DNA of 64,000 bases from Flavobacteriales bacterium. GTDB taxonomy: Bacteria; Bacteroidota; Bacteroidia; Flavobacteriales; Flavobacteriaceae. The notes beneath the pieces are model-generated. The model had not been told where the DNA came from and ran no database searches. It saw only the letters and a list, made by a program, of their open reading frames with translations. Of this stretch, positions 26,182-45,146 are shown in pieces (position 1 is the first letter of the stretch; each line of letters opens with the position of its first letter). The DNA is taken from NCBI GenBank assembly GCA_027039975.1, contig JALWFE010000132.1, positions 1 through 64,000 on the forward strand, written 5' to 3'. Made by a program: the position numbers and the translations under genes.

Positions 26182-27530
26182 TCAATCCCGTCCTAAACGT
26201 TTGAAAAAAATAATATAAAAAGAGAATGGTATTTAAAAATCTCAATTAACTTTGAGTTGTAAAACCAAAAACACCATTCTCTTATGACAAAGATAACATT
26301 ATTTGCTCAAATTATCCAAAGACTTGACCGTTCAATTTTTAATAAACTTGTAAAAGAGCACAGCACAGACAAACATCACAAAGGATTTGATAGTTGGTCA
26401 CATTTAATATCCATGCTTTTTTGCCATTTTGGAAAAAGTCAATCCCTTCGAGATATAAGTAACGGTTTACGATCTGCAACAGGCAACCTAAATCATCTTG
26501 GTAATGTTCACCCGCCAACCAAATCAAATTTAGGTTATCAGAATAAACACAGGACATATGAGTTGTTTAGAGATTACTATTACAACTTATCAAAACATTT
26601 AGGACAGCAGGCAGGATTTAAGCAAGTTAAATTCAGAATAAAGTCAAAAATTCTTTTACTTGACGCAACTACTATTAGTTTGTGTTTATCACTATTTGAT
26701 TGGGCAAAATACAAGACTAAAAAAGGCGCTGTCAAAATGCACACATTGCTTGATTTTGGCGGTAATCTACCTGCCTATGTAAACATTACAGATGGCAAAA
26801 CAGCCGATAATAAAGGCGCTTACGATATTCCCTTAATTAAAAATAGTGTAGTGGTAGCCGACCGGTTTTACAATGATTTTTCACTCTTGAATATTTGGGA
26901 TAGCAAAGGGGTATTTTTTGTAGTAAGACTACAAAGAAAACTTAAAATTTACAACTATAAAAGAAAATGAATTACCTGACAACAAACACCAGCATATTTT
27001 AATAGATGAAATTATAGAACTCACAGGAAAAACAAAAGATAAATATCCTAAACGCTTAAGAAGAATTGCCATTTGGGATGAAAAAAATAAACAGGTAATA
27101 GAATTGATAACCAATAATTTTAGATGGTCATGCAATACTATTAGCGAATTATACAAAAGTCGCTGGCAAATAGAAATCTTTTTTAGAGAAATTAAGCAAC
27201 TTTTACATATAAAGTCCTTTATAGGCACAAGCCCCAACGCTGTAATGATTCAAATATGGACAGCATTAATTACCATTCTTATATTAAAATATCTCAAAGC
27301 CATAGCAAAGCATAAGTGGTATTTATCTAATTTGGTGGCTTTTTTAAGAATAAACCTATTTGTCAAAATTAACCTTCAAAAATGGCTAGATGAACCTTTT
27401 ATCAAAAAGAAAAAACCACCGGATTTGCCTATTCAGGGGGTTCTTTTTGATTTTTAGCGGTTTTTTATTGGTAATCTCAATAAAATCAATACTTTTGATT
27501 TGTCTTAAAATTTATTTAGGACAGGATTGA
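26182..27530 (+). mobile_element. IS4-like insertion sequence, about 1.35 kb
   Basis: Imperfect terminal IR TCAATCCCGTCCTAAA / TCAATCCTGTCCTAAA (15/16) flanking a DDE transposase reading frame. Confidence 0.85.
26284..27457 (+). pseudogene. IS4-family transposase split by a frameshift near 26930
   Basis: ORF 26284..26970 and +1-frame ORF through 27457 join as ...VVRL/KENLKFTTIKENELPDN...SRWQIEIFFREIKQ. Confidence 0.8.
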
Positions 27531-31071: not shown

Positions 31072-31677
31072 TTATTCCCGCTTGGCCGTAAGCTCTATTT
31101 TCAAATCAATCTCATCCGGTACCGTCCAACCGTTTTCATCGTCGGAATAAGGTCTTTTCGGCGACATCCGGTAAACACCCCAATCCGTACGGTCGATAGA
31201 AAACTTCTCCGAAGTCATCGTCAATAAATCACCTTCCACTTTGATATGTGCTTTGAAACTCACACAATTGGTAATGCCGTGCATCGTAAAATCACCTATT
31301 AATTGATAGGTATCACCCGTTAAATGATAAGCATCTTCCAGCATAAAAATCGCATAAGGATATTTATCCGCTTCAAAAAATTCATTTTTCAGAGTATTTT
31401 CCAATATCATAACCGCTGTGCCGTATTGTTTTGTATCCATATCCAAATCCTTGATACTGTGCACATCTATTACAAACAAACCGCCAACAGGTTGGTCGTT
31501 TTCCAAAACAAAACCACCGTCTTGCAATTTGATTAAGCCGTTGTGTTTATCACATTTCCACAATATTTTACTTTTTAGAGTATCCACTCTATAAAAGCTA
31601 AACTTATCGTCTTCTTGAGCACGGGAAATATAACCGGTGAAAAGGAATAATAGTAATATGTAAAGAAGTTTTTTCAT
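31072..31677 (-). CDS. YceI-like family protein
   Basis: 'YPYAIFMLEDAYHLTGDTYQLIGDFTMHGITNCVSFKAHI' and 'KFSIDRTDWGVYRM'. Confidence 0.88.
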   Translation of the reverse strand: MKKLLYILLLFLFTGYISRAQEDDKFSFYRVDTLKSKILWKCDKHNGLIKLQDGGFVLENDQPVGGLFVIDVHSIKDLDMDTKQYGTAVMILENTLKNEFFEADKYPYAIFMLEDAYHLTGDTYQLIGDFTMHGITNCVSFKAHIKVEGDLLTMTSEKFSIDRTDWGVYRMSPKRPYSDDENGWTVPDEIDLKIELTAKRE

Positions 31678-31786
31678 TTAATATTTCAAATTTTACAGGT
31701 CACCGAGCGATTTTTGACGTAGGAAAAAATTGCATTTTCCACTTGATACTTTTAACTTTCAACTCGAGACGTTGCTTGCAATGTCT

Positions 31787-32689
31787 CTACTTTCCCCTGT
31801 CTTGCCAAATACCTGTTGCAAAACCTTTTTCATCGATAAATTCTTTAATTTCATCCGGTATGTTTTTGGCACCGTTAAAATCGGTTCCTTCAAATTCGGT
31901 TCCGAAAAAATTACATCCGTACAAATCGGCTCCCGAAAAATCAGCCCCTTGCAAATGTCCGCCTTGAAAATTGGCATGTCGTAATTTGGCATTGATAAAA
32001 GTGGAACCTTCCAATCCGCCACCGGTAAAATCGGCATAAGAAAAATCGGTACTGTCCAACTTCGAATCTTTCAAAACCGCTCTGATTAATTTGGCTTTTA
32101 CTGCCCGGCTTCCCGTAAAATCGGCATGAACAAACTCGGCATCTTTGAGCAAAGCCCCGGTCATATCACAATCACGTAATTTGGCAAAATGACCTTCCAT
32201 ACCGAACATATTAGCCCCACGGAAAGTGGAATGGCTCAAATCGGCATAATTGACATGCACGTGAAACAAGCGTGACTGGTCGAAATTGCAATGCGTCAAA
32301 TTTGCCCCGTCAAACAAGGACCAACGGATATCCGCCGCTCTGAAATCACTCCCGTGAAAATCCGTATCTTCACATTTAGCCGACCGAAAAGACGCCCCTC
32401 TGAAATCACCGAAAAGTATATGCTCGTCAGACCAATAGATTTTATCGAGGTTTTCCCGCCTGAAATCATCACTGTCTCGCGGCACGGCTTTTATGCCTTT
32501 TAAACGTTGAATGCCTGTGTCCTGATCAATAATGGAGTCCAATTGGTTTTGTTCCAAAAAATTTATCAATTCGGGAATGTTGGTCGTATCGGACTCCACA
32601 CCGGCCGTCTCTTGTCCACCTTGATTACCTCCACAGGATAACAAGGTCAGGATTATAAAACCGGTGATGATGAATATTTGTCTTTTCAT
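31787..32689 (-). CDS. Pentapeptide-repeat lipoprotein
   Basis: Lipobox 'LTLLSCGG'; A(D/N)LXX repeats from 'LFGDFRGASFRSAKCEDTDFHGSDFRAADIRW' onward. Confidence 0.92.
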   Translation of the reverse strand: MKRQIFIITGFIILTLLSCGGNQGGQETAGVESDTTNIPELINFLEQNQLDSIIDQDTGIQRLKGIKAVPRDSDDFRRENLDKIYWSDEHILFGDFRGASFRSAKCEDTDFHGSDFRAADIRWSLFDGANLTHCNFDQSRLFHVHVNYADLSHSTFRGANMFGMEGHFAKLRDCDMTGALLKDAEFVHADFTGSRAVKAKLIRAVLKDSKLDSTDFSYADFTGGGLEGSTFINAKLRHANFQGGHLQGADFSGADLYGCNFFGTEFEGTDFNGAKNIPDEIKEFIDEKGFATGIWQDRGK

Positions 32690-32699
32690 TGTTCTTGCT

Positions 32700-33031
32700 G
32701 GTTAACTGGTTAATCGGTTATTTGGTTATTTGATGCCGGGACTTCGGTACACCACTCCTTTGTCGTGACACTCAGCCACCTTTGATTCTATTTCCTTAGG
32801 TCACTGAGTGTTCTTTGCGACACAGGAGCAAAGAATGTATCGAAGTGACCGGTGTCGCTCTTCGCACTTTTTCGCTTAGGTTACTGAGCTTGTCGAAGTG
32901 TCCATTCTCAATTATCCCTTATCTCTTATCCCTGATCCAATCACACTCCGCACTTTACCACTTTCCATTAGACACTTTATCGCTTTTCACTAGGCACTTT
33001 CCACTTAGACGTTGCATACAACGTCTCTACA
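32700..33031. repeat. Composite intergenic repeat mosaic
   Basis: TGGTTAACTGGTTAATCGGTTATTTGG block, GGTTACTGAGCTTGTCGAAGTG, TTATCCCTTATCTCTTATCCC, CACTTTCCA blocks, terminal AGACGTTGCATACAACGTCT palindrome. Confidence 0.8.
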
Positions 33032-33857
33032 CAACATCATGCTTTTTAAAATATCTATATCCGAATACCGAAAATAACATACCGAGAACAAGGGGATATA
33101 ACAATGAAAAAATAGTAAATGTCGAACGGCTGACCGTGTCGAGTATATAATACGATACCGGTCCCATAACGGTTAATTTCGGATCGAACAAAATCAAACT
33201 GCCGGTTCTGAACACCTGCAACGGATTAAACAAACTCGCAATAATCACCGCTTCGGGATTGATACGCATTTTGAGCATCATTCCTATCAACAAAATATCC
33301 ATAAACGCCACTAAAAACAACCAGATGATAAAAGCCGTGCTCAACGCCATTTCCTGTGATTTGGAAACGGTGGACAAAAACATACTTAATCCGAGAAAGA
33401 AAAAAACCATCATAGCCAACAAGCCACTGTATAAAACAAACAAATCCCAAGGCACATCCAAATTGATTATCAATCCCCAAAGTGCCGCTCCGAGAAAAGC
33501 GATAAATACCGGGACATAAATCACAAAAAAACGACTCAAAAATTTGCCCCAGTAATAACTCCTGAAAGAAATAGGTAAGGACAAATAATATTCCAACACC
33601 CCGTTTTCTTTATCCCCGACAACGGAACGCACGGTCGAAATCAAAACATAAATAGGCAAGATAACCATACTCACTTGCATAAAAGTAATCATCAACCGGC
33701 TCAATCCGACAAATCCGACAACCTGCGATTCGGTAATACCGGTGGCAAACATTACTGCAACAAAACCGCCTAACAGTAAACTGTATGCCCAAAAAGATTT
33801 GGAACGTAAATTTTGCTTGATATCCGATTTTAAGACTTGTATTAAAGTTTTGTTCAT
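33027..33857 (-). CDS. nosY: ABC transporter permease NosY
   Basis: 276 aa, ABC-2 type permease, in cluster with nosF/nosL/nosD. Confidence 0.88.
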   Translation of the reverse strand: MNKTLIQVLKSDIKQNLRSKSFWAYSLLLGGFVAVMFATGITESQVVGFVGLSRLMITFMQVSMVILPIYVLISTVRSVVGDKENGVLEYYLSLPISFRSYYWGKFLSRFFVIYVPVFIAFLGAALWGLIINLDVPWDLFVLYSGLLAMMVFFFLGLSMFLSTVSKSQEMALSTAFIIWLFLVAFMDILLIGMMLKMRINPEAVIIASLFNPLQVFRTGSLILFDPKLTVMGPVSYYILDTVSRSTFTIFSLLYPLVLGMLFSVFGYRYFKKHDVV

Positions 33858-33881: not shown

Positions 33882-34421
33882 TTACCCCCCGCATTTGCCA
33901 CCGCCACACTTTCCGGGGGCACATTTCATACCACCTTCGCCTTCTTTACCGCTGACTGACATTTTCTTTTGCTTGATAAATTCCGCCCGCTTGGTTTTAC
34001 CCTCGTTAATACGCTGTATCACAGTTTTAAAATCATATTTAGCCGAATCCGTTTTATGCGCCAATGCCCCATATCCGTATCCCATAGGTGTTCGGTCACC
34101 AAAACGGTACCAAGCTTTTTCGGCATCTATCCATTTGCCGGTTTCCGCATCACCTATCCAGATTTTATATGTCTTACCTTTCCAAGTATTAAAATCACCA
34201 TCCCGCATATCTTCCGCCAAACAACCGATATCATCATACCAACGCACATCACCGTGTTCGTTGATGGCTTGCAAATTGTATTTCGGATCATCCAAACCCA
34301 TTTTACAAACATAACACACGTCACGGTCATAATTGACTTGTCGCGGGCTGAAATCCACTTTGCTGTTGCAACTAGATAAAAATACTAAAAATAAAACGGT
34401 AATTAAGGCTAATTTTTTCAT
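33882..34421 (-). CDS. nosL: NosL copper-chaperone lipoprotein with Cys-rich tail
   Basis: Lipobox 'LSSC'; 'DVCYVCKMGL'; C-terminal GGMKCAPGKCGGGKCGG. Confidence 0.88.
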   Translation of the reverse strand: MKKLALITVLFLVFLSSCNSKVDFSPRQVNYDRDVCYVCKMGLDDPKYNLQAINEHGDVRWYDDIGCLAEDMRDGDFNTWKGKTYKIWIGDAETGKWIDAEKAWYRFGDRTPMGYGYGALAHKTDSAKYDFKTVIQRINEGKTKRAEFIKQKKMSVSGKEGEGGMKCAPGKCGGGKCGG

Positions 34422-34501: not shown

Positions 34502-35152
34502 CTAATAGGTCTTGTCAACAACTATTTCTCCCAAATCCATTTCAATCAACCGGTTGATCAAATCTTCAATCTCATCAACACGGTGACTACTCAAAATCAT
34601 CAATGTATCTCCTGGTAAAGCTTTCAAATATTTAAATAAAATTTCACGCGCTTCCGGGTCCAAATTAGCCGACGGCTCATCCATCAACAAGATTTTCGGA
34701 TTACGCGCCAATGCCAAAGACACCAATAATTTCTGTTTCATCCCTCCTGATAATTTCAAAAAGGGTTTATTCAGGTGATTTTCAACATCTAATTTCAAAT
34801 CATTGGCTATTTGGACAAACTTTTCTCTATCGGTTTTGGTAACCACGGCAAAAAAATCCATAATTTCGGCAACGGTCATTTTAAGTGGTGGAGGCAATTG
34901 CGGTACAAAGCCTACTTCCTGTAAAATTTCTTCCCGTTCGGTTCTCGAATTTTTACCCAGCACACTTAAAAAACCTTCATAAGTGTAAAGCCCTAAAATA
35001 CAACGTATCAAAGTTGTTTTTCCCGCACCGTTTTGTCCGATAAGGGCAATACGGTCCCCTTGCTTAAACTGTACCGTCAAATCCTTGATTACCTGAACTT
35101 TATTAAAAGTTTTTGATAAATTTTTAATATCGATTAATACTTTTTGCTCCAT
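34502..35152 (-). CDS. nosF: ABC transporter ATPase NosF
   Basis: Walker A GQNGAGKTT, signature LSGGMKQK, Walker B ILLMDEP; cluster context. Confidence 0.9.
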   Translation of the reverse strand: MEQKVLIDIKNLSKTFNKVQVIKDLTVQFKQGDRIALIGQNGAGKTTLIRCILGLYTYEGFLSVLGKNSRTEREEILQEVGFVPQLPPPLKMTVAEIMDFFAVVTKTDREKFVQIANDLKLDVENHLNKPFLKLSGGMKQKLLVSLALARNPKILLMDEPSANLDPEAREILFKYLKALPGDTLMILSSHRVDEIEDLINRLIEMDLGEIVVDKTY

Positions 35153-35154
35153 AT

Positions 35155-36186
35155 TTATTTTTCCTGCTTTTTATCAGTCACATCATCCGGTATTTCCAGC
35201 GGATGCAATTCTTTTTTCTCCTCAACTTTTCCTAAAACATAACTCGGTGCTTTAAAACCGAACGACAAAGCTTCTCCGTAACAAACATCGACACACAAAC
35301 CGCATTTGGTACAATCACCACCGGTAAAATGCACTTCACGGGTAGCGGCACCTTTTTTGACAAACCAAAGTTCGTGCGGCACCAAACAAACATCCTGACA
35401 ATCGGTACAATAACCACATTTGTCTAATTCGAATTTAATCCCTATCGGTGACAAATCACCGATAATACCATAAGTTGTTCCGATAGGACAGACATAACGG
35501 CACCAAAAACGCTTGACACCGAAAATTTCAAACAACAATAAAGCAACCACCCAAATCAATGCCAATCCCGGTCCGTAAATCAACGAACGGGACAAAATTC
35601 CCACCGGATTGATATCTTCAAATACCAATTCTTTGGTAACAAATGCCAACAATAAAAATCCTGCCCAAAAAACATATTTAACGGTGGTATCATAGATTTT
35701 ATCCCGGACTTTTTTCTTTTTGATAAAATAAGCCCGGACTTTCTCACCCATTTCAGCCAAGAAATGATAAGGACAAACCCACGAACAAAAAGCACGCCCG
35801 CCACCTATCAACCAATAAATAGTTAATATGACAAAAAAACCTATCCAAAAATTAGTAGTCAATAATGCCAGAAAACCTACACGGGAACTGATGACCAATT
35901 CTTGTGCGGAATTAAAAGGATCCATCAAATATATTCCGATTAATCGTGAACCGCTCAATGAACCTTCCAAAATGGACAAATCAAAAGCAAATGACGTGAT
36001 AAACAGCACATTGATAAAAATCAAGAATGCCCAACGGCGGTTACGCCATTTATGTTTATTGATATGACTGTCGTGCCATTCTTTAAAAGTAAATCCCAAG
36101 CGGGCAAAAGGCAAGTTGGAACGGTCTTTCGGTGGAAGCGGTTTTCTTTTTTTATCTCTGGTAATCCAATCGTATAAAAATGCCAT
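35155..36186 (-). CDS. nosH: NosH/NapH-like polyferredoxin quinol dehydrogenase membrane subunit
   Basis: TM segments with 'CSWVCPYHF', 'CRYVCPIG', then two 4Fe-4S motifs 'CGYCTDCQDVC', 'CTKCGLCVDVC'. Confidence 0.85.
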   Translation of the reverse strand: MAFLYDWITRDKKRKPLPPKDRSNLPFARLGFTFKEWHDSHINKHKWRNRRWAFLIFINVLFITSFAFDLSILEGSLSGSRLIGIYLMDPFNSAQELVISSRVGFLALLTTNFWIGFFVILTIYWLIGGGRAFCSWVCPYHFLAEMGEKVRAYFIKKKKVRDKIYDTTVKYVFWAGFLLLAFVTKELVFEDINPVGILSRSLIYGPGLALIWVVALLLFEIFGVKRFWCRYVCPIGTTYGIIGDLSPIGIKFELDKCGYCTDCQDVCLVPHELWFVKKGAATREVHFTGGDCTKCGLCVDVCYGEALSFGFKAPSYVLGKVEEKKELHPLEIPDDVTDKKQEK

Positions 36187-36207: not shown

Positions 36208-37035
36208 TTAAGAAAACCTTGGTTCTTTATCCACAGGTTTTACAATTATCGATACCGGATTAGTCGGGCAGACCATTTGACAGACACCGCAACCGACACA
36301 ACCGTCTTTGACTTTTGGTAAAAATTTACCTTCTTCAATTTTATTTAACTCGATAGCTTCCTCTCCCAACGGACAATAGATAACACACAAATCGCAAATT
36401 TCCCTGTTGACTTGCGTTTCTTCGATACGCACCCGTTCCGTTTGTCCGGGTGGACGTAATTTTCCTTTATTGCCATGACCGAGCGTCCCTTTATAACCGT
36501 GACCGTTATAGGCCAGACATTGTTCAGGGTTAGGAATTTCAGCTTCTCCGATTTTATCGGCCCGTTTCATAGCTGTAATTTGCACTTCAAAAGGATTAAT
36601 ATCCTTAGGAAATCTTCCATCCGGATATTTCTCAAACAAAGGTGCAACAGCTTTATTACCGGCTTCTTTAAAAATCTGAAAATCAATAGCTGCCGTAGGA
36701 CACGTCTCGGCACATTGAATAGCATCACAAGAAAAATCACAAGCTTGTACATTAGGGTCAATAAAAGGGGTGCCGTAAGATAAACCATCGTCCCAGTCTG
36801 CCAATTTGATAGCTCTTACGGGGCAAATTTGCACACACAAACCACATTTGATACAAGAGAATAAAAAATCTTTTTCGGCTCTGGACCCGGGCGGTCGCAA
36901 ATAGCCCTGCTCTATTAAACTACTTTTGTCTTTGAAGTAGTAAGCGGCACTTCCCACCACTGCCAACGACACTACTGCCGAGACACCGGCTTTTAAGAAT
37001 TGCCTTCTGTCGATTTTAGAGTTAGTTTTTGCCAT
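36208..37035 (-). CDS. nosG: NosG/NapG-like periplasmic ferredoxin, Tat signal
   Basis: 'DRRQFLKAG' Tat motif; multiple CXXCXXC...CP motifs. Confidence 0.85.
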   Translation of the reverse strand: MAKTNSKIDRRQFLKAGVSAVVSLAVVGSAAYYFKDKSSLIEQGYLRPPGSRAEKDFLFSCIKCGLCVQICPVRAIKLADWDDGLSYGTPFIDPNVQACDFSCDAIQCAETCPTAAIDFQIFKEAGNKAVAPLFEKYPDGRFPKDINPFEVQITAMKRADKIGEAEIPNPEQCLAYNGHGYKGTLGHGNKGKLRPPGQTERVRIEETQVNREICDLCVIYCPLGEEAIELNKIEEGKFLPKVKDGCVGCGVCQMVCPTNPVSIIVKPVDKEPRFS

Positions 37036-37039
37036 TATT

Positions 37040-37488
37040 TTATGGTTATTTGGTTATCTGTTGATTTGGTTATACTGGTTAATCGGTTATTTGGTTATCT
37101 GGTTATTTGAGTGCCAAGTGCCTAGTAAAAAGTGCCAAGTGCGTTTTAGGTTCATAGCGTGTTTTGTTAATAATGATTGTTTTCGTTTGATGTCCGGTTC
37201 CTGATGTCTTGTGTTAGATGCCGGGTGTCCGCTGTCCGGTGTCGGACGTCAGATGTTGGATGTCGGATGTATTATTCATTTTAAATTTTATTTTTTACCA
37301 TAGAGTTGATGCACTGAGCTTACCGAAGTGCGGTCACTGAGCTTGTCGAAGTGTCCACTTTTAACTCATTCGCACTTTCCACTAAAAACCTGCACTTTCC
37401 ACTTTCCACTAGGCACTTTCCACTAAAAACCCGCACTTTCCACTTTCCACTTCGCACTTTCCACTAAAAACCCGCGCTTTCCACTTTA
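37040..37488. repeat. Composite intergenic repeat mosaic inside the nos cluster
   Basis: GGTTATTTGGTTATCTG block, GTCCGGTGTCGGACGTC block, CACTGAGCTTGTCGAAGTG, then CACTTTCCACT arrays running into the upstream gene's 3' end. Confidence 0.85.
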
Positions 37489-38190
37489 CCGCTTTCCACT
37501 TTCCACTTCAGCATACACACGCTCCAATGCCTCATACAATTCATCCGGCGTCACATCCGGTTGCTTCTCCAAAATCTCCTGCATCACCACATTATCCTCT
37601 TTTCCGTTCCATTTTTTGATATATTTTCCTTCTTTGTAACCGTGCTCTTGTCTGAACTTATTCAAAACATTTTTGCCGATGTACAACCGATACAAAATAT
37701 CGAGATTAACTTGTAATTTGTAAGCCATTTTAAAAAACGCATCGACGAGTGATAAAACATCATCCGTAGTGAACAACGTTTTGATAAAATCTTCTACATA
37801 ACCTATCTGCTTATAAATATCCCTGTCAAGCGGCTTAACATCCTTTGTAAATTGTTGATAATTAACAAGTTTTGAAATGTCAAAAGCCAGTTTATCAATA
37901 TTTCCTTTTTGATTGGTTTTATAATCACGCAATGCTTCGGACATCACAAAATGCCAAATATCCACTATTTCTATTTTGATATTTTCATAATCCGGTTCGG
38001 CATCGATGTTTTTCCAGTGTTTCCAAGGATAAGAATCGACCAATTCGGCGGCTTCCAAATAGATACAACGGGGCCAATCAATCACCTTTCCTTTATCGGT
38101 AAAACCGTTTTCCCAACCCTTACCACCGGTAGCATCATTGAGTTGCTGCTGCATCTCCAACATTTGCTTGATTTTAGTCATTACGGTCAA
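37486..38190 (-). CDS. All-alpha (dimeric) dUTPase-like NTP pyrophosphohydrolase (ATG at 38181 likely)
   Basis: 'CIYLEAAELVDSYPWKHWK' and 'IKIEIVDIWHFVMSEAL' motifs of the dUTPase_2 family. Confidence 0.85.
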   Translation of the reverse strand: MTVMTKIKQMLEMQQQLNDATGGKGWENGFTDKGKVIDWPRCIYLEAAELVDSYPWKHWKNIDAEPDYENIKIEIVDIWHFVMSEALRDYKTNQKGNIDKLAFDISKLVNYQQFTKDVKPLDRDIYKQIGYVEDFIKTLFTTDDVLSLVDAFFKMAYKLQVNLDILYRLYIGKNVLNKFRQEHGYKEGKYIKKWNGKEDNVVMQEILEKQPDVTPDELYEALERVYAEVESGKR

Positions 38191-39554
38191 TTTTTAATAT
38201 CCATTTTCAAATCAAAATTCCGCTTCTTTTTAAATTTTTCCAAATTAAAAACAGGTTTCGGGTCCTTCAATACAAACTGCGGTTTGGAAAAGGGCGCTAA
38301 CTTTTCGAGATAATCCAAGATGGATAAAATAGGTGCCCCGTAAAAAAATTTGATATCGGGATTGAAACGCCACAAGCGCGCATGATATTCATAAATACGG
38401 TGTGGAAAATCACCGATATTGTCACCATCTTTGTCATAACCGGCATAATCATCCCAATAATTATTAATCCATTTATTCCGGTTAGCCGTTCCGCCACCTT
38501 GGATAAAGACTTGTGTAAGGTTGTCGTGAAACATATTTTCACTGAACACGTTACCCTCTTGATCCTTTAAAAATTCAACGGCGGTATTGCAAAATGCGAT
38601 TTCATTGCCGGCGATGGTATTGGTTTTCCAAGGAACGAACGGAGAAACATCGATATAAATACCACGGGCGGAGTAAATAAATTTATTATCGATTATCTGG
38701 TTCGACGAAGTTTCTTTCATCCCCAAACACATACCGGTTACACCTTGTGAACCTTCTATCAAATTATTATTCATAATGGTTTTCTCACTATACATCAAAA
38801 AGATACCTACGGACGAATTGGAAAAATGATTGTGAGAAATTTGATTATTATGCGAATACATAAAATGGATACTATAGCGGTTGCCGGTTCCATAGTTACC
38901 TATAAATCTATTATCAGACGAATACCATACCACCATATCGCGAACCTCGTGCCAAATATTTTCCTGAACCAAATTGTTTTTAGAATACCAAAAACGGATA
39001 GCATCACCTTTTAAACCTTTCGATTTTCTTGACATTGAAGTGATATCATTATGTTTTATTAAACCGCCATTGGACCAAAAGACGTCTATTCCAAACAGTG
39101 TTTCTTCTATTCTGTTATTAACGATAACAAAATCATTGGATTTCTTAACCTTTATGGCACAGTCTATTCTGTCCGGTGAATCACCTGATTCAATAAAATG
39201 GCAATTTTTAATAGTAACACCGGGGGCTTCGACGTATAAAACCGAACGCAATCCTTTTCCGGATATTGTAGCGGTACCTTGACAGTCGATGGTCACATTA
39301 GCCGTTTTGATATGCCCCGGTCCTTCATAAAAACCGGGTTTTAACCGTAATGTATCACCGGGCGACAAAGCATCCAACAAAGGCTGAATATCTTGTTTAT
39401 GTGACCTGTCGTCGAAACCTTTAACGGGAAATAACAAACCGGGCTTAAAACTTTCGTCTATCTGTGCAAAATTTATTGAAATAACAAAAAATAATATGTA
39501 AAAAGAAAATTTTGACATTAGAAAAACAAAATTTAGAAGATGACGGAAATACAA
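38187..39554 (-). CDS. nosD: NosD, periplasmic copper-processing beta-helix protein
   Basis: 455 aa; right-handed beta-helix repeats 'GLIKHNDI..NNLVQENIWHEVRDMVVWYSSDNRFIGNYGTGNRYSIHFMYSHNNQISHNHF'; cluster context. Confidence 0.92.
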   Translation of the reverse strand: MYFRHLLNFVFLMSKFSFYILFFVISINFAQIDESFKPGLLFPVKGFDDRSHKQDIQPLLDALSPGDTLRLKPGFYEGPGHIKTANVTIDCQGTATISGKGLRSVLYVEAPGVTIKNCHFIESGDSPDRIDCAIKVKKSNDFVIVNNRIEETLFGIDVFWSNGGLIKHNDITSMSRKSKGLKGDAIRFWYSKNNLVQENIWHEVRDMVVWYSSDNRFIGNYGTGNRYSIHFMYSHNNQISHNHFSNSSVGIFLMYSEKTIMNNNLIEGSQGVTGMCLGMKETSSNQIIDNKFIYSARGIYIDVSPFVPWKTNTIAGNEIAFCNTAVEFLKDQEGNVFSENMFHDNLTQVFIQGGGTANRNKWINNYWDDYAGYDKDGDNIGDFPHRIYEYHARLWRFNPDIKFFYGAPILSILDYLEKLAPFSKPQFVLKDPKPVFNLEKFKKKRNFDLKMDIKN

Positions 39555-39603: not shown

Positions 39604-40362
39604 TTACTTGACGGATTTAATATACTTGTTTTTAAAATTAATTGCCAAGAACAATAAAATCATACCGGACAATCCGATAAAAAATCCGATATAAGGATAA
39701 GACATAGTCGTAAATTGCGCTACTTTTCCTTCGCCAAAGACTGTAGGCATAAAGGGTTTGATACCGTTAAAGGCACCACCACCGTGTAAGCCCAGATGAT
39801 GTCCGTACCAATAGAGATAATATACATAAATAACTAAAAAATAAATTGGCGCCAAAGCAGTTAAAACACCTGCCCAAGTTAGCTTTCTGTTAGATACGAA
39901 AACAAACAGCAAGCCAAGTAATGCTAATAGTCCAAAAGCAATATGAGCATTTCTCATAATTTTATCCAAGGTTTTTAAAGCACCCGGAATTTTTTCAGGC
40001 GGAATTTTGTCTCCTGCATAAACGGGATATGGCACATGGTTGCCCAATTCGTCCACATCGTTTACACCTTGAACAATAGGATACATACCGATAAAGTGGT
40101 TGATTTTATTCATTTCAATCAAACAATCGGCACCGGCATCTACTGCTAATTCTTCGCGTTCCCGGACACCTTCACAACCGTTATATACACCGTTGTATTT
40201 GAACTCAATACGGATACCTTTGGGATACATGGCTTTGGGATATTGGATGCTCTGCAAAGCTACCCACCACATAGGCAAAAAGTATGTCGCTACGATTAAA
40301 CCTGTTCCTAACAGGCCTAAAACCATGTACAAAATTTTAAATTTTTTTGCGTTGTTATTCAT
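39604..40362 (-). CDS. nosB: NosB-like four-TM membrane protein
   Basis: 252 aa; located directly downstream of nosZ as in clade II nos clusters; 'YWYGHHLGLHGGGAFNGIKPFMPTVFG'. Confidence 0.6.
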   Translation of the reverse strand: MNNNAKKFKILYMVLGLLGTGLIVATYFLPMWWVALQSIQYPKAMYPKGIRIEFKYNGVYNGCEGVREREELAVDAGADCLIEMNKINHFIGMYPIVQGVNDVDELGNHVPYPVYAGDKIPPEKIPGALKTLDKIMRNAHIAFGLLALLGLLFVFVSNRKLTWAGVLTALAPIYFLVIYVYYLYWYGHHLGLHGGGAFNGIKPFMPTVFGEGKVAQFTTMSYPYIGFFIGLSGMILLFLAINFKNKYIKSVK

Positions 40363-40496: not shown

Positions 40497-42938
40497 TTAT
40501 TTAGACATATCTTTTGCGACTTGTTCGGATTTGGCTTTCATATATTGAATCAATTTGTCAACATCTTTGGGGTCAACATGTTGATTCGGCATAGCCAATT
40601 TGAAAGTTTGTCGCATAGCTTCTATATCTGCATCTTTATATTTTGATTCAGGATTCAAAATCCATTCTTTCAACCATTTGTCACTTCTACGTTTGTGAAC
40701 CATAAACAAGTCCGGTCCATTGAACGGTTCACCGAATTTGTGACAAGCGTTACAACCGTAGTTCAAGAATTCCATTTCACCCGGCAACATATTTTTCAAC
40801 TCAATAGATGACGGTTTGAACGCTTGCATCTTGTTATCCCAATTGATTCTTTCGGTCAAAGCCAAAACACGTTTGTTTTCGGCATCTTGATCGAAGGTAA
40901 CGGTTAAGTGTCCGACCAATTGACGTTTTTTAGGACTGTTTTGCGGATCCACTACGATAGGATACACACCGGCTTTTTCGGCGTTGAATTTGATAGTAGC
41001 CGTTTCACCCGGTGAATACGGATACATCTTATCGTAAGATATGATTTCGTAAACATAGTGGTCGTAAGGCGTTTGTCCCAAGTTGGTCAAATGAATAATT
41101 ACATCTTGTCCTTGTTTGACATTGATATCCGCAGGTGTTACTTTACCGTCTTTGATAGTACCGAATACTTCAACGGTATTGCCTTTGGTTTCAACTTTTT
41201 CCGCACCGGCTTCGGTAGCATAAGGTGATTTTTCCATCGTCACGATATTCGTGCCTACCGGATATACTTCCCAAGTATTGGATTCATAAACATTGCGGTC
41301 TATCATTGCCGTATAGTGCGGCTCACCCATCGGTAATGGCAAGTCGTAAATTAATTGCGGATGTTCTGCGGCAATATCTATCAATTGGTGGTTTTGCGGG
41401 TGTAACGGACCAACCGGATTGAAACGGTCGATAGATAATTTGTTCAAAGCAATCAAATATTTACCTTTCGGATGTTTGGTATCACCGTGATAAGATACCA
41501 AGTGGCCGATATTATAGTGAGACGGTACATAATCCAAAACTTTTAACTTTTTGTAATCCCACTTGGTCACACGTGAATCCACATAGATAGACGTGTAAAC
41601 CACACCGTCTCTACTGTCATATTGATTGTGAAGCGGACCTAAACCGACTTCCAAAGAACCATGTAATGCATCTTCCAATTTGATGATAGGGATGCCGTAA
41701 TCATCTTTACCTTCAAATTTTTTGTTTTTGATAGCATCCATAATTTTATCAAAGCTGTAAACCCAAGCATGTGAATCCAATTTACCGGCAACGATAATAT
41801 ATTCACCACTGGGGTTCACATCCACACCGTGCGGCGATTTAGGTTCGGGAATCAAATACAGCAAGCCGTATTTTACGGATTCTTCAATGGTAATCACACG
41901 CATGCCGTTAATTTTCTTTTTACCGATTTTACCGGCTTTAATCAGTTCTTCGGCTTTTTTCCAGTTGGTAACGTGCAAATAGTCCACGTCTCTTGAAGAA
42001 CAACCGGCTTCAAACGGCGGACGACCTTTCATAATACCTCCGAAATAAACTTCGGAACAGAAGGAGTTAGTGAAACCCCAACCGTAAGATTTGGCTTTAC
42101 CGGCATCAGACAAGTCTTGGGTATAAGGCGGAAATTCGAAAGTAAACGAATTAGCTTCATCAACCTTACCGGTTTTGTTATCAAATTTCCAATAAGTCAA
42201 ACCGCCTCTCCAATACTTTTTATAATTTTCTTCGGTTAGAGGGTAGTATTTTCTATCAAACGGGGCGGGATATTGTGCCGCTTCCATAAAGTATTCGGAA
42301 TTTGGTGTAAAGAAACAGCCACCGTGGTCGGAACGGAATATCGGGTTTTGAATCACTTGTTTGACTGACCAGTCTCTCAGATCAACTACATAAACCCTGG
42401 GGTTGGCTTTATCGTTAATAGCCAGCCATTTTCCGTCGTAATCACCATCGGTTTCGGAGAATCCCGGGTGGTGGGTATCTCCCCATAAAATTTCAGTTCC
42501 GTCGATAAAACCTTTTTTCATCAAATTAAAGGTTTCTTCGGAGTATCCGTAACCGGCATAGGGTTGACGGGTATTGATAGGAACATATTTTACCATTCGC
42601 ATTGAAGGAAATACATAAGAAGGCAAGTTTCCTTCCTGTCCACCCGAATTTGCTGCAATACCTTCATCTTTTATATTATCAGGCGTATATGTTTTAACCG
42701 CAGCTAAAACATCGTCCTCGTTCAAACCTCTACGTTTGACAATGTCTTGGAAAGATTCCTTTCCTCTCGGTGCACCTATATCACCGGCACCGGCTTTTTT
42801 TCCGCCCTTTTTATCACCACCACAACTGGTAGCGAAAACAGCTACAAGCATTAAGGACATGGTTACAGTCAACAAACGCAACCAAGATATATTTCTGATA
42901 TTTTTCATAATCCAATTCAATTTAGAATTTATATACAT
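40497..42938 (-). CDS. nosZ: NosZ-type nitrous oxide reductase subunit: CuZ site intact, CuA site absent, C-terminal cytochrome c domain
   Basis: 813 aa; DTHHPG, SDHGG, SPHGVDV, GPLHNQYD, NIGHL, GEPHY; cupredoxin domain with 'YPIVVDPQNSPKKRQLVG' in place of the CuA loop; CNACHKFGEPFNGPDL haem motif. Confidence 0.9.
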   Translation of the reverse strand: MYINSKLNWIMKNIRNISWLRLLTVTMSLMLVAVFATSCGGDKKGGKKAGAGDIGAPRGKESFQDIVKRRGLNEDDVLAAVKTYTPDNIKDEGIAANSGGQEGNLPSYVFPSMRMVKYVPINTRQPYAGYGYSEETFNLMKKGFIDGTEILWGDTHHPGFSETDGDYDGKWLAINDKANPRVYVVDLRDWSVKQVIQNPIFRSDHGGCFFTPNSEYFMEAAQYPAPFDRKYYPLTEENYKKYWRGGLTYWKFDNKTGKVDEANSFTFEFPPYTQDLSDAGKAKSYGWGFTNSFCSEVYFGGIMKGRPPFEAGCSSRDVDYLHVTNWKKAEELIKAGKIGKKKINGMRVITIEESVKYGLLYLIPEPKSPHGVDVNPSGEYIIVAGKLDSHAWVYSFDKIMDAIKNKKFEGKDDYGIPIIKLEDALHGSLEVGLGPLHNQYDSRDGVVYTSIYVDSRVTKWDYKKLKVLDYVPSHYNIGHLVSYHGDTKHPKGKYLIALNKLSIDRFNPVGPLHPQNHQLIDIAAEHPQLIYDLPLPMGEPHYTAMIDRNVYESNTWEVYPVGTNIVTMEKSPYATEAGAEKVETKGNTVEVFGTIKDGKVTPADINVKQGQDVIIHLTNLGQTPYDHYVYEIISYDKMYPYSPGETATIKFNAEKAGVYPIVVDPQNSPKKRQLVGHLTVTFDQDAENKRVLALTERINWDNKMQAFKPSSIELKNMLPGEMEFLNYGCNACHKFGEPFNGPDLFMVHKRRSDKWLKEWILNPESKYKDADIEAMRQTFKLAMPNQHVDPKDVDKLIQYMKAKSEQVAKDMSK

Positions 42939-42947
42939 TTATACATA

Positions 42948-45146
42948 TTATTTTTCTTGAGCTAATTTTTCATCTAACAATTTTTTAGCTCTCAAACCGA
43001 CATCGGCAGTTTTAACTTGATATTGCCAATATTGTTCAGCCCACAAGAATGCATCTTTCCACTTACCTTCTTTGGCATATTTTTTATATTTCTCTTCTGC
43101 CATCTTACCTTTGTTCAATTGGTCGAATGCATCATCAACCAAAGCTTTTACGTAAGGATATTTTTCGAAATGATTTTTCTTCAAGTAATCCACAACACCT
43201 CCGATGATATCGGCAGTTTCTTTGATAACTTTAACTTTTTCTTCGTATTTTTTCTTGTATTCGGCCAATTGTTCTTTGGTCAATTTTTCGCTGATATCTC
43301 CAACAGGACCACCTTTATATCCTTTCGGTCTGACCAATAAGATACCTTCCATTTCCAAGTGCAAAGCGGAACAGAACTCGGTACAATAGTAAGGGAATAC
43401 ACCGGGTTTGTCGGCTACAAAAGTCAATGAAGCGGTTTTACCCGGCTCAAATGAACCGTGCTTACCGTAAGCATCAACGGTAAATCCGTGCGTTTCGTCT
43501 TCCGCTCTTTCCAAGTTGGTTAAGTGGAAAGTTACGATATCACCTTCGTTAACTTCAACAATTTCAGGTGTGATGTGTGAACGAATCAAAGTACCGAATA
43601 CGTGCACACGGTTGCCTTGACGCTCGATTTTTTCTTGACCGGCAACTGCACGGAAAGGTGAAGCTTCTCCCGTACGTGAATTGGTTCCAGTCGGATAACG
43701 GATAATCGGTTTGATGGTCGTACGTAAGATAAGAGCATTACCGTAAACATTGGCTTGAGGTAAAGTCATCGTATAAGTATCCACCATCTCGTCATCGGCA
43801 GAAATGTCTATCAAGTGTTGTACACTCGGACGAACCGGACCGGTTTTAGGTAAGTTTTTCAAATAAGCTTCTTTGTCAACGGCTATCAAATAATTTGAAT
43901 GCGGTTCAGATGACAAACCTTGCGGTGTTGTCAAATAAGAAGGTTTGAAGTTTAATTTAACTTCATCCATTTTTTTACCGGTTTCGTAGTTGAAACGAAC
44001 GATTTTGCTATCATCGTGAGCTGAAGCATAAGCTACACCTTTACGATAGTCAAAAGTTACGTCAACAACACCTTTACCGATAGCAACGGATTTATGCATT
44101 ACAGCGTCGGCTTTGACATTTTTACCGACATTGGCTTTCAATTTATCGGCATCCAATACCAATACGTTATCTGCGGCAACCAAAACGTATTTGCCGTCAG
44201 GAGACACTTTGACCATATTGGCGGATGCAGGTAATTCGACAAAACCGAGAATTCCGGCTTTTTTTACTTCACTTAAAGGAATAAATTGAGAAAAAGTCGT
44301 CGGCACTTTTTTCATGCCTTCGGCTTTTTTGTAATCCAATGTATAAACGTAAGTTTTACCGTTGTCAAATGCCAAACCGAATAATAAGCCGTCAGAAGCA
44401 CCTTTGCCTACATCGTTATAATCATATGCATAAGGCGGCATTTCAACGGTAAAGGATTTTTCTTTTAAGATACGTCCTTTATGCTCACCTTCTTTTTCAA
44501 TACGTTTAACTTTCCAGAAAGTAATACCGTTTTGAGCTTTGGACATATCGGTTACTTTGTTGTCCCAAGGCATCGGGAATTGACCCGATTGAATAACATA
44601 TTCCGTATTAGGCGTAACGGTTGCTTCGGGGAATACACTTTTTAAAATGGTGTTAGATAAAACTTGTTTTGTTTCAAAGTCGTCCAAACCCATCAAAGCA
44701 ATACGGGCATTGGCACCATCGGAGAAGAAAGCGTATTTACCGTCATATTTTCCGTCAGTTTCGGAAAAAGCCGGAAAACGCATATCCCCGTAAGAAGGAA
44801 TAATATCATCCGGATTTGATTTTTTCAACAAAAGAGAACTTTCGTCGTCAAATCCGTAGCCTTGCCAAGGTTCCGGTGTAAATACACCTACATATTTGTA
44901 GATACGCATACTAGGCACACCATAAACAATCATGGTTCCCGAGTTACCGGTACCTACAATACCGAAGTACTCATCACGACCTCCTCGAGGCATGAAGGTT
45001 TTCACAGCAGCAATCTTGTCTTTTTCAGACAGACCCCGCGCTTTCATTACAGCGTCCACTGTTTCTTGGGCTGCTAATTTTGATATTCCGAACAAGAATA
45101 CCAAAATTACAAGAACAGATTGGGTCAACCAATTTGATTTTCTCAT
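42948..45146 (-). CDS. NosZ paralogue: CuA site intact, all CuZ histidines substituted, helical C-terminal extension
   Basis: 732 aa; 'DETHGF' and 'YYCTEFCSALHLEMEG' CuA motifs; propeller lacks CuZ ligands (GDMRFPAFSETDG, KSVFPEA, ANMVKVS, GKGVVDVTFD, KPSYL, PQANVYG). Confidence 0.9.
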   Translation of the reverse strand: MRKSNWLTQSVLVILVFLFGISKLAAQETVDAVMKARGLSEKDKIAAVKTFMPRGGRDEYFGIVGTGNSGTMIVYGVPSMRIYKYVGVFTPEPWQGYGFDDESSLLLKKSNPDDIIPSYGDMRFPAFSETDGKYDGKYAFFSDGANARIALMGLDDFETKQVLSNTILKSVFPEATVTPNTEYVIQSGQFPMPWDNKVTDMSKAQNGITFWKVKRIEKEGEHKGRILKEKSFTVEMPPYAYDYNDVGKGASDGLLFGLAFDNGKTYVYTLDYKKAEGMKKVPTTFSQFIPLSEVKKAGILGFVELPASANMVKVSPDGKYVLVAADNVLVLDADKLKANVGKNVKADAVMHKSVAIGKGVVDVTFDYRKGVAYASAHDDSKIVRFNYETGKKMDEVKLNFKPSYLTTPQGLSSEPHSNYLIAVDKEAYLKNLPKTGPVRPSVQHLIDISADDEMVDTYTMTLPQANVYGNALILRTTIKPIIRYPTGTNSRTGEASPFRAVAGQEKIERQGNRVHVFGTLIRSHITPEIVEVNEGDIVTFHLTNLERAEDETHGFTVDAYGKHGSFEPGKTASLTFVADKPGVFPYYCTEFCSALHLEMEGILLVRPKGYKGGPVGDISEKLTKEQLAEYKKKYEEKVKVIKETADIIGGVVDYLKKNHFEKYPYVKALVDDAFDQLNKGKMAEEKYKKYAKEGKWKDAFLWAEQYWQYQVKTADVGLRAKKLLDEKLAQEK

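Follow-up and report, generated by a model that had tools for sequence, protein, structure and literature searches.

The window, i.e., the whole stretch of 64,000 nucleotides which was analysed, carries a nos operon headed by two tandem paralogues of the nitrous oxide reductase NosZ in which the two copper sites have been lost reciprocally. Protein A (nosZA) has a complete CuA site and lacks every CuZ histidine. Protein B (nosZB) has all seven CuZ histidines and lacks every CuA side-chain ligand. We hold, with a probability of roughly 0.84, that the two chains would constitute a split, obligately heteromeric clade II N2O reductase, in its simplest form a 1:1 head-to-tail heterodimer with a single CuA(A)/CuZ(B) site. 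A wider proposal is also likely, if stated a little less firmly: an obligate heterodimeric N2O reductase whose only active site is asymmetric, each dimer holding a single CuA and a single CuZ where ordinary NosZ has two of each, would have been fixed by a maintained duplication with complementary loss, and in several orders of Bacteroidota and Ignavibacteriota the nos operon would carry it as one unit. The pair and the accompanying genes are located as follows.

42948..45146, minus strand: nosZA, 732-aa CuA-bearing NosZ paralogue (Sec signal peptide, propeller devoid of CuZ, cupredoxin with CuA, helical extension at the C-terminus)
43707..45029, minus strand: seven-bladed propeller of A without CuZ ligands (approximately aa 40-480)
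43323..43631, minus strand: cupredoxin of A with complete CuA site (aa 506-608; H553 at 43490-43488, C588-M599 at 43385-43350)
42951..43322, minus strand: C-terminal extension of A with three predicted helices (aa 609-732)
40497..42938, minus strand: nosZB, 813-aa CuZ-bearing NosZ paralogue (lipoprotein, fused cytochrome c; probable true start at 42908)
41259..42671, minus strand: seven-bladed propeller of B with all seven CuZ histidines (aa 156, 157, 205, 370, 437, 479 and 541)
40893..41186, minus strand: cupredoxin of B without CuA ligands (aa 585-682; replaced ligand loop IVVDPQNSPKKRQLVG at 40958-40911)
40500..40808, minus strand: C-terminal c-type cytochrome of B (CNACH at 40754-40740; Pfam Cytochrom_C)
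39604..40362, minus strand: 252-aa membrane protein at the NosB position (no Pfam match; homologues at the same place in ordinary clade II nos operons)
38187..39554, minus strand: nosD (TIGR04247, 365.9 bits, cut-off 300)
37486-38190, minus strand: dUTPase-like gene between nosD and the NosG-like gene (NF049964, 283 bits, cut-off 300)
36208..37035, minus strand: NapG/NosG-type ferredoxin protein (quinol dehydrogenase module)
35155..36186, minus strand: NapH/NosH-type membrane ferredoxin protein (TIGR02163, over cut-off)
34502..35152, minus strand: ABC ATPase at the NosF position
33882..34421, minus strand: NosL-like lipoprotein (CxxCM motif; weak Pfam NosL match, E 0.014)
33027..33857, minus strand: ABC-2 permease at the NosY position

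The original prediction had described tandem NosZ paralogues at these positions, which stands, both ORFs being on the minus strand, and a gap of 9 nt between the two genes, which is obtained only when B is read from its first ATG. The homologues suggest that translation of B starts at the internal ATG 42908 (MKNIRN...), and by this start the gap between A and B is about 39 nt. The C-terminal c-type cytochrome of B and the C-terminal three-helix extension of A had not been part of that prediction.

The reciprocal loss had been read from a hand alignment: all seven CuZ histidines substituted in the 732-aa protein and retained in the 813-aa protein, the CuA site complete in the former and altered in the latter by C to V, C to N, H to K and M to L. 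Alignments with PDB structures, a family alignment and a per-position count agree with this reading in every residue. Protein A possesses 0/7 CuZ histidines and 5/5 CuA side-chain ligands. At the positions of P. stutzeri H129, H130, H178, H326, H382, H433 and H494 it carries R123, F124, F172, N310, D362, Y404 and Y468, respectively. Its CuA side chains are H553, C588, C592, H596 and M599, with the backbone carbonyl ligand contributed by E590. Protein B possesses 7/7 CuZ histidines and 0/5 CuA side chains, the latter being replaced at H583 by Y, at C618 by V (usually L or I in B-type proteins), at C622 by N, at H626 by K and at M629 by L. Hidden ligands were sought in the alignments as well; there are no CuZ ligands in A and no CuA ligands in B.

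The A-type and B-type proteins from other genomes follow the same rule. In the per-position count the B-type proteins have the E492 and K454 equivalents and the seven CuZ histidines invariant. Among A-type proteins the replacements are themselves fixed, i.e., H382 to D in 51/51, H494 to Y in 52/52, H129 to R in 47/49 and E492 to N in 52/52, and the second-sphere CuA-site equivalents of F621 and L627 are invariant. A His occurs at the H433 position in seven A-type relatives and at the H326 position in one; thus the A-type group keeps 0-1 of the seven CuZ histidines and not strictly none. The former CuZ positions in A are fixed to Arg, aromatic residues, Asp and Tyr, which indicates a rebuilt hub and not decay. 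A and B are 32% identical to each other. In the NosZ profile TIGR04246 with its cut-off of 625 bits B scores 669.8 bits, i.e., above, and A 415-418 bits, i.e., below.

That adjacent reciprocal pairs might exist in other genomes had been proposed as a check, and they are widespread. A single scan of 85,462 species genomes (GTDB) with an alignment of A retained 80 loci. In the first 45 of these, 57-93% identical to A, A is directly followed by B on the same strand wherever the contig permits. The next 35 loci, 41-44% identical and from Proteobacteria, Myxococcota and Neomarinimicrobiota, have one NosZ each, of the ordinary type and with both sites. Taken together, A followed by B is present in about 50 MAG loci besides that of the window, all of them reciprocal. 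All aligned sequences fall into three clean classes without any intermediate, 58 A-type, 58 B-type and 76 ordinary NosZ. Fragments are counted in these tallies, and a few genomes are counted that had been reached in two ways; after de-duplication there are 53 A and 53 B. The ordinary NosZ controls have 7/7 CuZ and 5/5 CuA ligands in 76/76 cases. A reciprocal pattern which is exceptionless in some 50 further pairs, set against these controls, is not a product of chance. Genomes of the same genus have the same neighbouring genes and, where the gene is present, the same site pattern; a few loci are cut by contig ends.

The carriers are labelled Flavobacteriales, Lutibacter, Saprospiraceae, Bacteroidales, Lentimicrobiaceae, Melioribacteraceae and 'Chlorobiota', and all named ones are MAGs. 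Among 396 well-assembled Bacteroidota genomes 135 have a NosZ-type match, and type A occurs only in the genome of the window. This single occurrence indicates that the pair resides mainly in uncultured lineages. Three bins contain two A/B pairs each, or else two strains per bin: G011 (L043, L044), SZUA-1414 (L061, L066) and G574 (C170, C151). One genus shows two states, the split pair and an ordinary 678-aa NosZ, in G091 and G106, one each; this difference suggests an operon replacement by horizontal transfer.

A complete NosZ hidden elsewhere in the genome was looked for as well. In the genome of the window (2.16 Mb, 97% complete) the only TIGR04246 matches are A and B themselves, and profile searches detected no clade II or lactonase-type clade III NosZ beyond the pair. 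In 41 of the 44 other pair-carrying genomes there is no further NosZ; the remaining three (G547, G549 and G577) have an ordinary 660-aa NosZ beside the pair. In 12 genomes tested no clade III lactonase-type NosZ (NF052460) scored over the cut-off. In eight genomes tested there was no match for NirS and none over cut-off for NirK, and so the carriers look like non-denitrifying N2O reducers.

The operon which the pair heads is otherwise clade II in content. The ordinary loci of the nearest subclade have the order nosZ, cytochrome c, diheme cytochrome c, nosB, nosD, nosG, nosH, nosF. The split loci read nosZA, nosZB with a fused cytochrome c, nosB, nosD, nosG, nosH; the cytochrome part has one or two hemes or is joined by an additional small cytochrome. 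The position fits a fusion of the cytochrome of the operon onto B; in a sequence comparison the scores were too weak to show a derivation of the B cytochrome from the operon NosC. A second C-terminal CxxCH is present in B of L061, L062, L064, L065, L068, L069, L080, L093 and L095, and the loci of Bacteroidales and Melioribacteraceae have a separate small cytochrome gene after B instead. The dUTPase-like gene is also found in the same-genus loci L033, L034 and L037 and is absent from L057-L059 and L038. A pentapeptide-repeat lipoprotein gene and a YceI-like gene come after the nos genes (31072-32689, minus strand), and the pentapeptide gene adjoins nosY in same-genus loci, too. Two ORFs at 26284-27457 on the plus strand look, by eye, like the halves of a broken IS4-type transposase.

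In a tree calculated with the ligand motifs masked, A-type proteins form one clade and B-type proteins form one clade, each with 100% support. Both are nested among the ordinary clade II NosZ of proteobacteria, Myxococcota and Neomarinimicrobiota and not among ordinary Bacteroidota NosZ. Each chain thus arose once, and the many loci reflect long maintenance and not independent invention. The stems are long, 1.38 changes per site for A and 0.76 for B. A joint clade of A and B is not rejected (p-AU 0.334), and the two may have come from one tandem duplication. The distances among A and among B correlate with r = 0.854, a value as high as which was reached in 0 of 1000 permutations; consequently, the pair has been inherited, and has moved, as a unit.

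Between genomes of the same genus dN/dS is 0.01-0.12 in every domain. This includes the domains without a metal site, with 0.05-0.10 for the A propeller and 0.02-0.06 for the B cupredoxin. The constraint is distributed in opposite directions in the two chains. Cupredoxin divergence divided by propeller divergence gives a ratio of 0.22 for A (95% 0.13-0.32) and of 1.54 for B (1.18-2.05), compared to 0.94 and 0.85 in two sets of ordinary NosZ. In other words, the CuA domain of A is about five times more conserved than its propeller, and in B the order is reversed. When the ligand motifs are masked the ratio is 0.29 for A and 1.41 (1.04-1.81) for B versus 1.15 (0.81-1.58) for ordinary NosZ; thus the signal of reciprocal constraint is strong for A and weaker for B, of which the masked ratio overlaps the ordinary range. 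The identities to ordinary NosZ are 71% for the cupredoxin and 38% for the propeller of A, and 59% for the propeller and 32% for the cupredoxin of B. One clade for each chain, congruent histories, dN/dS far below 1 in the dead domains and the reciprocal domain constraint together lend support to the heteromer which had been suggested from the hand alignment.

AlphaFold2 monomer models, built from alignments of the locus proteins, have a mean pLDDT of 84 for A and of 82 for B. The target TM-scores against solved NosZ are 0.78-0.82 for A and 0.82-0.87 for B. As the monomer models match solved NosZ, both chains are predicted to retain propeller and cupredoxin. The C-terminal helices of A, modelled at residues 624-731, are three in number and long, and no Pfam domain covers this extension. 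It recurs in the ordinary clade II NosZ of the parent subclade, such as those of Rhodocyclaceae and Myxococcota (L096-L130). The extension may be a docking site for the cytochromes of the operon.

In NosZ, CuA of one protomer and CuZ of the other come together at the dimer interface as one active site (PMC11573801). An A:A dimer would be devoid of CuZ and a B:B dimer devoid of CuA; hence exactly one complete CuA/CuZ pair would be created in a head-to-tail A:B dimer, the stoichiometry of which is probably 1:1. If both dead domains serve to hold the dimer together, selection on them is to be expected; without such a role it is hard to explain. The A:B dimer and its geometry, as well as the route of the electrons and the N2O-reducing activity, are inferred from the known NosZ structures. 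According to this model A would supply the electron-transfer centre CuA, and its propeller, having lost CuZ, would serve as a structural partner. B would supply the catalytic CuZ cluster, and its cupredoxin, having lost CuA, would be structural. N2O would be reduced at one of two pseudo-symmetric interfaces, where CuA(A) faces CuZ(B), and the opposite interface would be dead. Electrons would pass from menaquinol via NosG/NosH to the cytochrome c fused to B, on to CuA(A), CuZ(B) and N2O, in some lineages with a second cytochrome in the path. By its lipobox B would be lipid-anchored; A, with an N-terminus which reads as a Sec-type and not a twin-arginine export signal, would be soluble.

Other readings of the pair have to be weighed against the split enzyme. 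B might be a CuA-independent N2O reductase in which the fused cytochrome c feeds CuZ directly, with A as an accessory CuA protein, i.e., an electron buffer, a copper donor or an assembly scaffold. A fused CxxCH cytochrome does exist in every B-type protein long enough to tell, two in some, and the ordinary NosZ of the subclade are without one. However, a free electron carrier would need neither a whole 440-residue propeller under purifying selection nor invariant CuA-pocket residues such as F591 and L597, both of which A has, and A is always present and always adjacent. We know of no NosZ which works without CuA and consider this reading unlikely. Higher heteromers are conceivable, too, e.g., an A2B2 of two heterodimers or docked homodimers of A and of B, in which CuA(A) and CuZ(B) would pair as in the simple dimer or via a new interface. 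Sequence cannot give a stoichiometry, and the presence of both domains in both chains would allow several assemblies. Yet with the known head-to-tail interface of NosZ (PMC11573801) a 1:1 dimer would already possess a working CuA(A)/CuZ(B) pair and nothing beyond this is needed, which makes such assemblies quite improbable.

The long stems of both chains could be taken as a sign that the pair has acquired another function, such as turnover of another copper or oxide substrate, sensing or redox scavenging, and that N2O reduction was lost. The CuZ histidines and the E492 and K454 equivalents are, however, invariant in B, as is the CuA site in A, and the pair belongs to a full nos operon, in which NosD, NosG/H and the ABC genes at the NosF and NosY positions are all present; we rate a changed function as very improbable. 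Finally, each chain looked at singly resembles a dead NosZ, as decaying duplicates or a sequencing or binning artefact would. This is scarcely credible in view of the low dN/dS in all domains and of a pair which dozens of MAGs, assembled independently of each other, contain intact and in unchanged order. Pseudogene decay is ruled out by dN/dS together with the fixed replacement residues, an assembly artefact by the recurrence in many MAG projects.

Among known systems the Sec-dependent clade II NosZ (TIGR04246), e.g., of Dechloromonas/Rhodocyclaceae, Myxococcota and Neomarinimicrobiota, is similar in fold, in its two domains and in its operon, and A and B branch inside this group. Of the clade II traits the pair has Sec-type export (Sec signal in A, lipobox in B), a nosB/nosD/nosG/nosH operon and the fold of propeller plus cupredoxin; by whole-protein score it belongs to TIGR04246 through B alone. 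The difference is that ordinary clade II NosZ has CuA and CuZ on one gene, whereas the split pair uses two genes and B carries a fused cytochrome c. Neither A nor B has both sites in one polypeptide; the two chains have them jointly. B further resembles the Wolinella-type cNosZ in its succession of propeller, cupredoxin and cytochrome c and in the NosG/NosH quinol dehydrogenase module of the operon. In cNosZ, CuA and CuZ are in one chain. B, in contrast, is without CuA, which the operon provides on a further chain, A. To clade III lactonase-type NosZ (NF052460) there is distant homology over parts of both chains, with 104.5 bits for B and 72.5 bits for A, under the cut-off of 700 bits. Heterodimers can arise from homodimers by duplication and complementary loss, each paralogue keeping part of a shared site; we know of no case of this for an N2O reductase or a CuA/CuZ pair.

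In a 2024 paper the CuA and CuZ features were reported as 100% conserved in clades I and II, on one polypeptide (PMC11096178). In open-access full text we found no earlier heteromeric or split NosZ; subscription journals and bioRxiv lay outside the scope of this search. What came closest in this search is a 'NosZ-like' protein with CuA and no CuZ, which DPANN archaea of oxygen-deficient zones possess (PMC10936187); it is another kind of protein. Phylogenetically the DPANN sequences fall between Cox2 and NosZ, most of them are shorter, and in the majority of MAGs they lie next to acyl carrier protein genes; in two DPANN MAGs an upstream five-histidine protein clusters with clade II NosZ (PMC10936187). 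Going by that description, A and B differ from them in being full-length NosZ, B with seven CuZ histidines and a full nos operon, and A nested in clade II. The pair is still NosZ by descent and probably by function, with the single-chain site pattern broken reciprocally and conserved in this state.

If true, this would be the first N2O reductase to have its two copper centres encoded by separate genes, and nature would thereby provide a test of whether NosZ ever needs both of its active sites. Apart from the lactonase-type clade III, which was named recently, no enzyme other than NosZ is known to us as a biological sink for N2O. One survey removed sequences without the correct CuA or CuZ residues (PMC9188126). 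Surveys filtered by residues in this manner would discard both halves of the pair, and as a result carriers would be scored as non-N2O-reducers; annotation by score retains B only. The natural separation of CuA and CuZ would permit each centre to be loaded, mutated and studied singly, something which engineering of a homodimer cannot easily provide. A dimer with a single active site would also open half-site behaviour, the copper loading per site and the path of electrons from the cytochrome c to direct tests.
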